DNA of 32,964 nucleotides from Coriobacteriales bacterium (GTDB taxonomy: Bacteria; Actinomycetota; Coriobacteriia; Coriobacteriales; Atopobiaceae). A program made the translations under genes and the position numbers. The stretch covers positions 1-32,964 of the forward strand of contig JAQXQO010000117.1 in assembly GCA_029101205.1 (NCBI GenBank), in the 5' to 3' direction. Each line of letters starts with the position of its first letter. Within the stretch, counting starts at the first letter, position 1. The notes beneath the pieces were generated by a model, which worked only from the letters and a program-made list of their open reading frames with translations, was not told the DNA's origin and did not search any database. Below, piece after piece: positions 874 through 11,663 of this stretch.

Positions 874-3717
874 TCATGACGCCGCCCCCTTGGACTGGAC
901 GTTCAGGCAGGCCGAGAAGACCTGACCCGCAACCTCAGCCGCCACGCCCGTGACGTCCTTGCCGTTGCCCTCGATGCAGACCGAGATGGCCACGGTGGGC
1001 GAGTCGTAGGGAGCAAAGCCTATGAACAGCGAGTTGATGGAGTTGTTCCCCACCTGCGCAGTTCCGGTCTTTCCTGCCACCTTGTAGCCGCTGACGCGAG
1101 CACCCGTGCCGGTGCCGCTTTGCACGACCGCCAGCATGGCTTCCTTCACGCTGGCTGCCGTCTCGGACGAGACGGCCTTGCCCAGCGACTTGGGGGAGGT
1201 CGTGGACGTGGTGGCGCCGGAGGGCGACAGCACGTGGTCCACGATGTAGGGGTTCATCACGATGCCGTTGTTTGCGATGGCGGCGGCGACCACGGCGTTC
1301 TGCATGACCGTGGTCTGGGGGCCGGCGGGGCTGGAGTGCTCGCCCACGGGCTGGCCGCAGGCGGCCCACGCGGTCTCCCACTCGGTCATCTCGGACGGGT
1401 CGGGCATCAGCGACGCGGTGCAGGAGAAGTCCTGTCCCAGCGAGCTGCCGTAGCCGAAGGCCTTCGCATAGCTGACCAGGGTGTTGGCACCCAGCTTCGT
1501 GCCGATCTGACCGAAGGCGGTGTTGGCCGAGTAGGCCAGCGCCTCGGACAGCGAGATTTCGCCGTAGCCGGTGTTGTGGTCATTCGAGACCGACTGTCCG
1601 CCTATGTTCATGGACGCGGGCGCGTTGATGGTGCTGTTCAGCGTGTAGGTGCCGGTCTCGAGCGCGGCTGCCAGCGTGACGACCTTAAAGGTGGAGCCAG
1701 GCGTGTACAGCTGCGTGGTGCGGTCCACCAGGGAGCTGCTGGAGCTGGTGAGCGCGGCGCTGATGTTGGTCAGGTCGTACGTGGGGTTCGAGGCCTTCGC
1801 CAGGACGGCTCCCGTGGAGGGGTCCAGCACCACGATGGCGCCGGTGTAGTTCTTCAGTGCGCTCTCCGCAGCCTTCTGCATCTGGTAGTTCAGCGTCAGG
1901 ACCACGGAAGACCCGGGCGTCTGGATGCCGGCGAGCGAGTTCAGGGCATCCTGCCAGGTGGAGTAGTTCTGCTGGCCGGTCAGGGTGTCGTTCATGCTGG
2001 ACTCGATGCCCGAGCTGCCATACTGCGTGGAGATGTAGCCCACGGTGTGAGCTGCCACCGAGCCGTTGGGGTAGGAGCGCACGTAGGTGCCGTCGGCCTG
2101 CTGCACGCTCTCGACCAGCGTCTGTCCGTCGGAGGTGATGATGGCGCCGCGTTGGACGTAGGCGGTGCGAGCGATGGTGTGGTTGTTGCTGGGCATCTCG
2201 CGATACTCCTGGGCACGCACCACCTGGATCACGGTCAGGTGCGTGATCAGCAGGGCAAACAGCACTGCGAACACCGTGATGAGGTGCACCAGGCGGTTGC
2301 CTAGGGCCACGCGGCCCAGGACGCCGGACTCGGGGGTGTCCAGACCAAAGCTGCCGCGCACGTGGCTGCCGTGAGCCACCGCGGCGGCCTTCTCGGAGCG
2401 TACCTGGGGCATGGTGCCGGCGCCGGCCATCTGGGTGTCGCGGCCGGTGGCCTCGTCGCCTGCGCGCAGCAGCAGGCCAACCACGATGAAGCTGGCCAGA
2501 AGCGAGCTGCCGCCCTGGCTCATGAAGGGCAACGTGACGCCGGTCAGGGGCAGGAAGCCCGTGCAGCCGCCCACGATGAGGAAGGCCTGGAAGGCGATGG
2601 AGGTGGTCAGGCCGATGGCGGTGAAGGCCGAGATGTCGGACTTTGCGCGCGCAGCCGTGGCGAAGCCGCGGACGGCGAACAGCATGTAGGCAATCAGCAC
2701 GGCAGCGCCGCCCAGAAGGCCCATCTCCTCGCCGATGGCCGAGAAGATGAAGTCGGACTCGACCACGGGAATCAGCGTGGGCATGCCCTTGCCGATGCCG
2801 GAGCCGATGAGGTCACCGTCGGCCAGGGAGTACAGCGACTGAATCAGCTGGTAGCCGCCGTCGGGGTTCCCGAAGGGGTCCAGCCAGATGTCGATGCGGT
2901 TCTGCACGTGGGAAAAGACGTGGTAGCACACGACGCCGCCCAGCAGCAAAAGAACCAGCGAGATCAGCACGTAGCTGACGCGCCCCGTGGTGGCGTACAG
3001 CATGACCACAAAGAAGGTAAAGAAGAGCAGGGCGCTGCCCAGGTCGCGCTCGAACACGACGACCAGCAGGCTGATGCCCCACATGGCCAGAAGCGGCATC
3101 AGCATGCGCGGACGGGGCAGTGCCAGGGGCCCCACCTTGTGCGTGGACGCCGAGAGGAGCTCTCGGTGCTCGGCAAGGTAGGCCGCCAGGAAGAGGATTA
3201 TCAGGATCTTCGCCAGCTCGCCGGGCTGGAAGGAGAACGGGCCAAACGTGATCCACAGCTTGGAGCCGCCGCGCTCGGTGCCGATGAGCATGGGCAGCAC
3301 CAGCAGTGCCACGCCCAGAAGGCCCATGATGTACTTGTACTGTGCCAGGTCATCCAGGCTCTTTACCAGGAACAACGTCAGCACCATGGCGCCCACCGAG
3401 ATGAAGAGCCACACGACCTGACCCACGGCCAGCTCGGGCTTCAACCTGGTGACGAAGGCGATGCCTATGCCGGACAGCACAAAGACCAGCGGCAGTATGA
3501 CCGGGTCGGCGCCGGGCGCCAGGAACCTGATGGCCACGTGGGCCACCGCAAAGGCGGCAAACAGGCCGATGGGCACCGCCAGCGTCTGGAACGTCACCGC
3601 CGTGTTGGTGTTTATGACGTACATGGCGTACAGCAATATCACGGGCAGAGCCCCGGCACACAGCAGCAGAAGCTCCGTGTTTCTTCTGGTGATGATTGAC
3701 TTGCCCATGCTACTCAC
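874..3717 (-). CDS. Fusion of FtsW/RodA-type SEDS glycosyltransferase (N-term) and class B penicillin-binding protein transpeptidase (C-term), 947 aa
   Basis: N-terminal multi-TM SEDS-like segment ([45 protein letters not shown]); C-terminal transpeptidase motifs STFK (SxxK), SAN (SxN), KTGTA (KTG), all in one frame. Confidence 0.95.
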
Positions 3718-5107: not shown

Positions 5108-5517
5108 CGACGGCTCACTCGCATGATGGTGTCGCCAATCTGCACCTCGTCACCGTCGCGCAGCGTGACGGGCTGGCCGATGAGATGGCCGTTCACCATG
5201 GTGCCGTTGGTGGAGTGCAGATCCTCCAGCACCAGGGCGGGACCCTGCAACGTGAAGCGTGCGTGCGTGGCCGAGACGTATGGCTCGTCGATGACGATGT
5301 CGGACGAGGGCGAACGGCCCACGACGACGGGGCCCAGCATGTCTACGTGCAGGCCCCTCAGCTGCTTCGAGCCCTTCTCGACGTCGACGGACCAGATGGC
5401 CGCGTCGCGGCGCTGGCCGCGCACAAGGCCGATGCCCGTGCGCATGGCGGCAAAGAGGAACAGGTACAGCAAGATCACGAGGAGGATGCGACCTGCGAAC
5501 AGTATGAGGTCGATCAT
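5104..5517 (-). CDS. FHA-domain membrane-anchored protein (FhaB/FipA-like)
   Basis: ATG at 5517: MIDLILFAGRILLVILLYLFLFAAMRTG then FHA motifs VVGRSPSSDIVIDEPYVSATHARF...LEDLHSTNGTMVNG; stop overlaps the downstream phosphatase start. Confidence 0.9.
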   Translation of the reverse strand: MIDLILFAGRILLVILLYLFLFAAMRTGIGLVRGQRRDAAIWSVDVEKGSKQLRGLHVDMLGPVVVGRSPSSDIVIDEPYVSATHARFTLQGPALVLEDLHSTNGTMVNGHLIGQPVTLRDGDEVQIGDTIMRVSRR

Positions 5518-5518
5518 G

Positions 5519-6619
5519 CTAGTTGCCCTTGAACTGGAGGTTGATGAGGCCAATGGTGATGACGTCGCCGTCGCGCAGCGAGCAGGCCTCGACATCTATG
5601 TCGTTGACCAGGGTGCCATTGGTGGAGTTGAGGTCGTTGATGACCCACTCGCCGTTGTCGTAGGTCAGCATGGCGTGGTGGCGCGACACGTTGGGGTCGT
5701 GCAGCACGATGCCGCCGGGCGTGCGCTCGCGGCCGATGGCGGTGCGCGGTGCGGTGGCGACGTAGGTGTGGCCGGACTGCATGTCGGTCAGGGTGCAGGT
5801 GGCGGGACGAGCGGCGTCGGCCACGGGCTCCGATGCTACGACGGTGGGGGAGTCCTCCTGCTGGGGCTCGGCGGCCTGCGGGGCGCTCACGGCCTCGGGC
5901 TGCTGCGCCGGCGCGTAGGCGGCGTTCGCCTGGGCTTGGCCCTTCTCGTAGTTCTCCTCGGCGATGTCCTCCAGGACCTCGTTGGGAATCACGTCCAGGC
6001 CGTCCATGCCGGAGTCGCCGGACACGGGGGAAGCCACGACGGGCTGTGCGTATGCGGGCTGGGGCTGAGCCGTCGGCTGCTGCGGCACGGGCTGCACCGA
6101 GGCCGCCACGGGCTGCATGGGCTGGACGGGCTGCATGGTGGGGGCTGCCTGCGAGACGCGCGCGCCGGGGACCGGACGCACGCCCTGCGCCTGGACGGGC
6201 TGGCGGCCCAGGAAGGCGTTCTCCTCGTCGCGCAGGCGCGCCAGGGTCTTCGGGTCGACGTTCTCGGCAAAGACGGCGAACTTGCCGGGCTTCAGGCCCG
6301 GGTCCACCATGAAGCGCACCAGGGGGCGTCCCACGAACGTGTAGCCGCGCTTCTTTGCTTGGGCCTCGACCAGCGCCGAAACCTCGTCGGTGATCTGGGG
6401 ATACAGGGTGCGCATCCTCTGGTCGTCCGCGGAGGAGACCAGCACCGTGTACAGCGCGGGTGCCGTGTCGACGCCCTCGATCACGAAGGTCTCGTCCTCC
6501 ATCTCGCGTACCGCACGCTTTGCGAGCTTCTTGAACGAGAAGGGCGTCGTGGCGTTGTTGTCGTTTGCGTCTCCAAAGATGGCGCCGATGCGCTGCTCAA
6601 AGACATTCAGTACGTTCAT
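5519..6619 (-). CDS. FhaA-like protein: DUF3662/FhaA N-terminal domain, Q/P-rich linker, C-terminal FHA domain
   Basis: MNVLNVFEQRIGAIFGDAN...FSFKKLAKRAVREMEDET; C-term IGRERTPGGIVLHDPNVSRHHAMLTYDNGEWVINDLNSTNGTLVND. Confidence 0.92.
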   Translation of the reverse strand: MNVLNVFEQRIGAIFGDANDNNATTPFSFKKLAKRAVREMEDETFVIEGVDTAPALYTVLVSSADDQRMRTLYPQITDEVSALVEAQAKKRGYTFVGRPLVRFMVDPGLKPGKFAVFAENVDPKTLARLRDEENAFLGRQPVQAQGVRPVPGARVSQAAPTMQPVQPMQPVAASVQPVPQQPTAQPQPAYAQPVVASPVSGDSGMDGLDVIPNEVLEDIAEENYEKGQAQANAAYAPAQQPEAVSAPQAAEPQQEDSPTVVASEPVADAARPATCTLTDMQSGHTYVATAPRTAIGRERTPGGIVLHDPNVSRHHAMLTYDNGEWVINDLNSTNGTLVNDIDVEACSLRDGDVITIGLINLQFKGN

Positions 6620-11175: not shown

Positions 11176-11352
11176 TTGCGACTTCTTACTATGCCATTCG
11201 GCACCCATGGCGTCAAGAACTTTTTTGACTTTTTTCTCGGCACAGCTTCGGAGTCCTAGTGGCATGGTGTGCGCAGCGGTCATCATGCCTGGTAAGAGGT
11301 GTCGTGAGCGGTCGCGACACGACGATGGGAGGATTTTTACGCAGGGGATGTG

Positions 11353-11433
11353 CGAATCCCCGGGGAGCCCGCCTAAAAGAAAACCCGCCTCCGAGGAAGC
11401 GGGTTGCATAATCTGGCGGAGAGCTGGGGATTC
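11353..11433. repeat. Direct repeat copy 1: tRNA-Ser 3'-end fragment plus duplicated terminator
   Basis: cgaatccccggggagcccgcctaaaagaaaacccgcctccgaggaagcgggttgcataatctggcggagagctggggattc; near-identical to 11513-11592 (3 substitutions and 1 indel by eye). Confidence 0.93.
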
Positions 11434-11512
11434 CCGCGCCGCTGTGCGGCGCTCAAGGCCTCGCTGCGCTCGGCCCGTGTGCGTGCACCGCACGCACACG
11501 CCCTCTCGGGTT
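11434..11512. repeat. Hairpin-rich core between the direct repeats
   Basis: GCGCCGC-tgt-GCGGCGC (11436-11452) and CGTGTGCGTGC-acc-GCACGCACACG (11476-11500), both perfect, plus GGCC...GGCC (11457-11475). Confidence 0.85.
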
Positions 11513-11592
11513 CGAATCCCCGGGAGCCCACCTAAAAGAAAACCCGCCTCCGGGGAAGCGGGTTGCATAGTCTGGCGGAGAGCTGGGGATTC
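11513..11592. repeat. Direct repeat copy 2, overlapping the 3' end of the intact tRNA-Ser
   Basis: cgaatccccgggagcccacctaaaagaaaacccgcctccggggaagcgggttgcatagtctggcggagagctggggattc. Confidence 0.93.
11541..11564 (-). terminator. Rho-independent terminator of tRNA-Ser
   Basis: Minus strand AACCCGCttccccggagGCGGGTT followed by TTCTTTT. Confidence 0.8.
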
Positions 11593-11663
11593 GAACCCCA
11601 GATTCCCGTGGAGGGAATACTCGCTTAGCAGGCGAGCACCTTCGGCCTCTCGGTCAGCTCTCC
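11573..11663 (-). tRNA. tRNA-Ser(GCT), CCA encoded
   Basis: Minus strand GGAGAGC...GCTCTCC-G-CCA; anticodon arm ctcgc-ctGCTaa-gcgag; long variable arm; T-loop GTTCGAATC. Confidence 0.96.

Follow-up and report, generated by a model that had tools for sequence, protein, structure and literature searches.

The locus behind the tRNA-Ser(gct) gene of this Coriobacteriales bacterium raises the question of why the 3' end of the tRNA gene is present a second time downstream of it and what the hairpin-rich sequence between the two copies represents. The window, that is the whole stretch of DNA that was analysed, is 32,964 nucleotides in length.

The duplicated tRNA-Ser(gct) end and its core

A direct repeat of 75 nt with 95% identity (11359-11433 and 11518-11592) is present in the window at a spacing of 159 nt, in agreement with the unit of about 80 nt at about 160-nt spacing that was described in the original prediction. 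Each copy contains the tRNA-Ser 3' end and a terminator, and the hairpin-rich core is located between the copies. The intact tRNA-Ser predicted to adjoin one of the copies was found by ARAGORN, and the U-tract terminators are both intrinsic terminators of the minus strand (Table 1).

In two congeners, G001 and G002, the tRNA-Ser is beside the same GluQ-like gene and is followed by a single terminator, without the element. The distance from the tRNA-Ser to the next tRNA, Arg(acg), is 156 nt in G001 versus 397 nt in the window. This comparison of the region downstream of the tRNA-Ser had been proposed with the original prediction. The extra DNA in the window is an insertion and the congeners show the empty site. 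The GGGGAT...ATCCCC pair noted previously is also present and is read as the inverted arm, now decayed, of a second unit. It is concluded that the window contains one intact and one decayed unit behind the tRNA-Ser(gct).

Table 1. Features of the tRNA-Ser(gct) locus, in order along the minus strand
Feature	Position	Strand	Basis
Host gene, tRNA-Ser(gct)	11573..11663	-	ARAGORN
tRNA-Ser 3' end, T-loop to CCA (GAATCCCCAGCTCTCCGCCA), the duplicated part	11573..11592	-	Sequence, repeat alignment
Terminator of the tRNA gene, first copy, tail TTCTTTTAGG	11541..11564	-	Terminator prediction (intrinsic)
Linker from terminator to closing stem; its GGTGG can pair with CCGCC of the copied tRNA end	11520..11533	-	Sequence, fold
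Structured core, covariance-model match E = 4.2e-14 (whole genome)	11427..11519	-	Model, covariation, strand analysis
P1 5' strand (GGATTC), part of the inverted tRNA T-arm copy (GGGGATTCGAACCC)	11514..11519	-	Covariation, arm comparison
P5, CCC-GAGA-GGG, GNRA-capped mini hairpin	11501..11510	-	Covariation, loop analysis
P4, 11-bp hairpin CGTGTGCGTGC-GGT-GCACGCACACG; sequence varies, pairing kept in relatives	11476..11500	-	Covariation
P3, GGCC-GA-GC-GCA-GC-GA-GGCC, tandem G.A stem, GNA loop	11457..11475	-	Covariation, fold, loop analysis
P2, 7-bp hairpin GCGCCGC-ACA-GCGGCGC	11436..11452	-	Covariation
P1 3' strand (GAATCC), first bases of the second tRNA 3'-end copy	11428..11433	-	Covariation
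tRNA-Ser 3' end, second copy (T-loop to CCA), 20/20 identical to the gene	11414..11433	-	Repeat alignments
Terminator, second copy (intrinsic)	11382..11405	-	Terminator prediction
Decayed inverted arm (GGGGATTCGCACATCCCC) of the second, distal unit, the GGGGAT...ATCCCC pair	11344..11361	-	Sequence, alignment
Possible P4 remnant of the decayed unit (GTGTCG...CGACAC)	11297..11321	not assigned	Sequence inspection only

Two perfect hairpins of 7 and 11 bp and a GGCC pair had been described for the core, and all three were located. Read on the plus strand these are GCGCCGC-TGT-GCGGCGC (P2), CGTGTGCGTGC-ACC-GCACGCACACG (P4), and the GGCC/GGCC stem (P3). The tRNA-like sequence at the right end of the core, GGGTTCGAATCCCCGGGAGCCCA, is likewise present. 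The left GGGGATTC and the right GAATCCCC of the core pair with one another, closing a multibranch structure. Folding of the region 11337-11600 is better than that of 200 out of 200 shuffled sequences (z -5.4 for the plus strand and -6.7 for the minus strand). On the tRNA strand, the order is inverted T-arm, P5, P4, P3, P2, and copied tRNA 3' end. The closing stem, P1, comes from the host tRNA and is formed by the copied 3' end and the inverted copy of the T-arm. The core match was reported on the plus strand because the model had been built on the complement; the biological orientation is judged to be the minus (tRNA) strand.

A covarying family behind tRNA genes

A DNA search of relatives identified core fragments behind other tRNAs. 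A covariance model, R1, was built from seven copies and identified a total of 42 copies in 10 out of 61 relatives, with up to 13 per genome. Both the recurrence of the core at other tRNA 3' ends and its recognition by a covariance model, suggested earlier as checks, were therefore seen. Across the class, R1 identified copies in 43 of 300 Coriobacteriia genomes, from 25 of 124 genera and at least four families. The distribution is patchy, with 257 of the 300 genomes and both congeners lacking the element. More cases were found by a pattern scan of named genomes in the Atopobiaceae, Coriobacteriaceae, Eggerthellaceae (Slackia, Enterorhabdus), and unclassified Coriobacteriia. Related repeats occur behind many tRNA genes of gut bacteria. 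Plasmid and phage collections contained no similar DNA, and of 9 pattern matches in viral contigs none was recognised by the covariance model. At Rfam gathering thresholds the window matches tRNA only, and the weak Rfam matches in related loci are off-family.

Compensatory changes, on both sides of the pair, are seen in 33 of the 35 pairs over 101 copies. The covariation score is 0.596 versus 0.167 for shuffled sequences and at most 0.077 for slid controls, and 94.0% of the cells pair versus 68.5% when shuffled. The alignment was fitted to the model and leans towards structure. Despite this the covariation is secure, given the margin over the slid controls and the two tandem units of one locus (L033), which differ almost only in P4 and both pair perfectly.

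The strand that folds can be judged from the mismatches and loops. There are 94 G.A mismatches on the tRNA strand versus 5 on the complement, and 57 G.U versus 37. The P5 loop is GNRA in 80 out of 84 copies, where the purine at the third base is the informative position because some of the copies came from a pattern search in which the last loop base was fixed. The P3 loop is GNA in most copies. Since the GNRA loops and G.A mismatches lie on the tRNA-sense strand, this is taken as the folded strand, which favours a predicted RNA of the tRNA strand as the folded molecule. The earlier suggestion of a tRNA-derived structured RNA can be kept for the arms, which are tRNA-end copies, and for the RNA-like loops; the RNA itself is a prediction. 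GNA hairpins and tandem G.A pairs are also stable in single-stranded DNA. In addition, the terminator between the tRNA and the element in the window is strong, which counts against a read-through RNA. On both grounds it is possible that the folded molecule is single-stranded DNA instead.

The association with tRNA genes is close. Of the 101 distinct copies, 86 have a tRNA on the same strand within 700 nt upstream, mostly 50-63 nt away, and 25 anticodon types are represented. Ten of the remaining 15 are near contig ends. Of the other five, three form an array that follows a degenerate tRNA-Glu end (L183) and two are single copies, behind tRNA-Val and tRNA-Phe 3' fragments that lack their 5' parts (L169 and L157, respectively). 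Wherever enough intact flank is present, the copy immediately follows a tRNA gene or a 3' fragment of one. At L157 (about 3210-3610) and L169 (about 5480-5765), foreign-looking DNA seems to cut the tRNA-Phe and tRNA-Val near the anticodon. The tRNA 3' fragments still carry the element behind them, and the Phe fragment is adjoined by what reads like the start of a phage integrase.

The arms are fitted to the host tRNA. Compared with the reverse complement of the host T-arm, the inverted arm agrees at 13.1 out of 15 positions, versus 11.8 for the same arms against the T-arms of other tRNAs (sd 0.11, maximum 12.2, 2000 draws). Identity between the copied tail and that of the host is 80% or more in 64 out of 71 cases. 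An instructive exception is genome G028, in which the host tRNA-Glu ends GAATCCCGT..., and both the arm and the downstream tail are GACTCCCGC..., the form of tRNA-Glu found in other carriers, with matching T-stem. This unit came with foreign DNA, since its arm and tail fit the tRNA-Glu of another species.

Resemblance to rtT and to other repeats

The rtT repeat of E. coli has been known since the early work on tyrT, as a curiosity of one tRNA locus. Copies are found behind tRNA-Tyr at tyrT/tyrV, and the Rfam family RtT (rtT, rttR; RF00391) matches E. coli and Salinisphaera halophila. The element in the window and nearly all of its relatives are likewise directly 3' of a tRNA with a repeat of the tRNA 3' end, and tandem units in both systems each contain such a copy. 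The folds of the window, E. coli, Salinisphaera, and other sequences are multibranch, with the tRNA-end copy pairing with its inverted complement to close the structure, and include a hairpin with tandem G.A around a short loop. The CGTTGCC-GCA-GGCAACG hairpin of E. coli is also present in Coriobacterial copies, and the Salinisphaera halophila copy has GAACC-GAGA-GGTTC and GAGCGAAGCGA hairpins like the Coriobacterial ones.

There are also differences. The E. coli repeat has extra hairpins (CCTGAAGGG, GCGCGCAGCGC) and no intrinsic terminator is visible before it, whereas the Coriobacterial elements use many tRNAs, with arms fitted to each. The Rfam model is blind to the Coriobacterial elements. 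RF00391 has no match in the window at the gathering threshold, in the window unit at E <= 10, in ten related loci at E <= 1, or in any of 120 genomes of the class. The Coriobacterial element is built like rtT, yet by model score it is not a member of RF00391. As the model misses the Coriobacteriia, homology to E. coli rtT rests on the common plan rather than on a model match. A full-text literature search found reports of RtT (PMC4986893, PMC2965389) and none on Coriobacteriia or on tRNA-fitted arms.

Look-alikes behind tRNAs were seen at single loci in a Gammaproteobacterium (Gln), an Aminicenantota (Glu), an Opitutaceae (Glu), a Colwellbacteria (Glu), and a haloarchaeon (Leu). In the last of these, Candidatus Halobonum tyrrellensis, a similar inverted arm comes after tRNA-Leu(tag), together with a GAGCGAAGCGAG hairpin and a tRNA-end copy (L187, about 4066, complement), a possible archaeal case. 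Verrucomicrobium strains (L109, L135, L196, L205, L213, L216, and L217) contain many copies of a REP-like palindrome, TCGAACCCGGAGGGTTC...GAGCGTAGCGA...CTACCGCGGAGCGGTAGGCC, which is not tRNA-linked. In a Bacillota MAG (L148) a comparable unit (GGGACTCGAACCC...GAGAGCGAAGCGA...) is repeated in tandem, and no tRNA was found in its vicinity.

Probable mobility and the competing explanations

Several observations bear on how units arise. For copies without a following unit, the direct repeat ends at the CCA or within 10 nt of it in 31 out of 47 cases; in the others it reaches the terminator or extends past it. Neighbouring units can have differing terminators and cores with the same tRNA end (L068, L059, L166). 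The likeness of cores is 0.69 at different tRNAs of one genome versus 0.63 across genomes and tRNAs, and in genome G021 the nearest relative of every copy is in the same genome. Together the repeat ends, tandem units, and core likeness are read as targeted insertion, spread inside a genome, and now and then a transfer from one species to another. The small mobile or palindromic element of tRNA 3' ends envisaged in the original prediction is in essence what the copies suggest, given the many tRNAs, the patchy distribution, the apparent spread within genomes, and one foreign case. Another of its suggestions, a scar of att-site integration and excision, is unsupported in the form given, since the structure of the core is conserved and covaries. 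There is a likeness, since the tRNA 3' end is duplicated from the T-loop on, as by tyrosine integrases at tRNA genes, and the 20-nt duplicated end resembles an integrase attachment site. However, the units here have no island or integrase. Beside the duplicate of the window unit there is no remnant of an excised island or integrase, and at L157 and L169 foreign-looking DNA cuts the host tRNAs.

Three candidate mobilisers were considered. The Y1/RAYT transposase (PF01797) does not track the element, being absent from G010 (13 copies), G021 (7), G028, and G000. Integron integrase (TIGR02249) is above the family cut-off in none of 8 genomes, which have general tyrosine recombinases only. Reverse transcriptase (PF00078) is present in G010, G251, and G318 and is absent from G000, G029 (13 copies), G021 (7), G028, and G033. 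None of the three is the obligatory mobiliser. The idea of a gene cassette, from a reading frame ending beside a T-arm (L044), was rejected, the contig having ordinary chromosomal genes beside a tRNA-Ser.

The feature in the window belongs to a family of rtT-like, probably mobile elements at tRNA 3' ends, which would enter tRNA genes by a targeted mechanism. A unit consists of a linker with terminator, an inverted copy of the host T-arm, the P5-P4-P3-P2 core, and a copy of the host tRNA 3' end from T-loop to CCA, often with a terminator. On the tRNA-sense strand the inverted arm pairs with the copied tRNA end as P1, giving the closed multibranch structure. Entry into a tRNA 3' end would duplicate about 20 nt of the tRNA, and repetition may generate the tandem units. 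The rtT RNA has been reported to arise by read-through from the tRNA promoter and to be released during tRNA processing, and by analogy the folded RNA of the Coriobacterial element may be produced in the same way.

Among the other explanations, it is barely credible that the 3' end of the tRNA-Ser was merely duplicated locally in tandem and that the GC-rich hairpins arose by chance. The genome is GC-rich and slippage could give a 75-nt direct repeat, but dozens of genomes have one core architecture, with compensatory changes, after about 25 types of tRNA, and recurrence and covariation rule out slippage and random hairpins. The original prediction had reserved this reading for a core that is single-copy, absent from relatives, and without covariation, which is not what was found. 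It is very improbable that these are palindromes of the REP/REPIN/BIME type, moved by RAYT (TnpA_REP) and piled up behind tRNA genes. Such palindromes are also small and multicopy with mismatched stems, P3 (the GAGCGNAGCGA hairpin) is REP-like, similar hairpins were caught by the pattern scan in Verrucomicrobium, Planctomycetes, and Pseudomonas, and enterobacterial BIMEs have been noted to include rtT-like sequences (PMC2965389). Against this, the Coriobacterial copies are strictly at tRNA ends with host-specific arms rather than dispersed and have a larger multibranch fold, and the carriers without a Y1 transposase largely refute a resident mobiliser of this kind.

An attC-like cassette of single-stranded DNA, in which the folded strand is recognised by a recombinase and undergoes recombination with the T-arm palindrome of a tRNA, the units carrying tRNA end and terminator, is somewhat unlikely. 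As in integrons, a folded element is bounded by inverted repeats, here of the T-arm, and forms array-like tandems with exchangeable parts, as the differing terminators before the same tRNA end illustrate. The stability of GNA mini-hairpins and tandem G.A in DNA and the strong terminator preceding the element would also suit a DNA element. However, there is no integron integrase above cut-off, the T-arm TTCGAAC does not fit the RYYYAAC of attC, and no unit bears a gene. In addition, the P5 loops obey GNRA, not merely GNNA, and the G028 junction is unlike an exchange in the T-loop. Also unlikely is a conserved host regulatory sRNA resembling rtT, kept for tRNA or stringent-response physiology and not selfish. 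This accords with the RNA-like GNRA loops and the covariation, and RtT RNAs of E. coli and the Pasteurellaceae, near Asn and Lys tRNAs in the latter, are expressed and linked to amino-acid limitation (PMC4986893). It is harder to reconcile with the absence of the element from most genomes of the class and both congeners, with as many as 13 copies at different tRNAs elsewhere. The arms follow whichever tRNA adjoins and therefore insertion suits better than a dedicated regulator.

A largely selfish element, the RNA structure of which is needed for its spread, is the favoured form of the mobile-family explanation. A broader proposal is tentative, having rather less than an even chance of being right. 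The Coriobacterial elements may be part of a class that spans several phyla and consists of mobile structured RNAs, or of single-stranded DNAs that fold. Its members would insert specifically at the T-arms of tRNAs, each remaking its closing stem from the sequence of the target tRNA. E. coli rtT would then be a fossil member and tRNA genes the obligatory niche. The occurrence of the rtT plan after some 25 kinds of tRNA in Coriobacteriia, with over 30 covarying pairs and fitted arms, makes the class open to comparative study. It raises the question of what moves such an element and writes the sequence of the target tRNA into its stem, and has a bearing on the annotation of tRNA genes, on tRNA-end integration sites, and on small RNAs from tRNA operons.

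Elsewhere in the window (874-3717, minus strand), a reading frame of 947 aa combines an FtsW/RodA domain (residues 74-421) and a penicillin-binding transpeptidase domain (residues 626-933), a fused SEDS-PBP protein.
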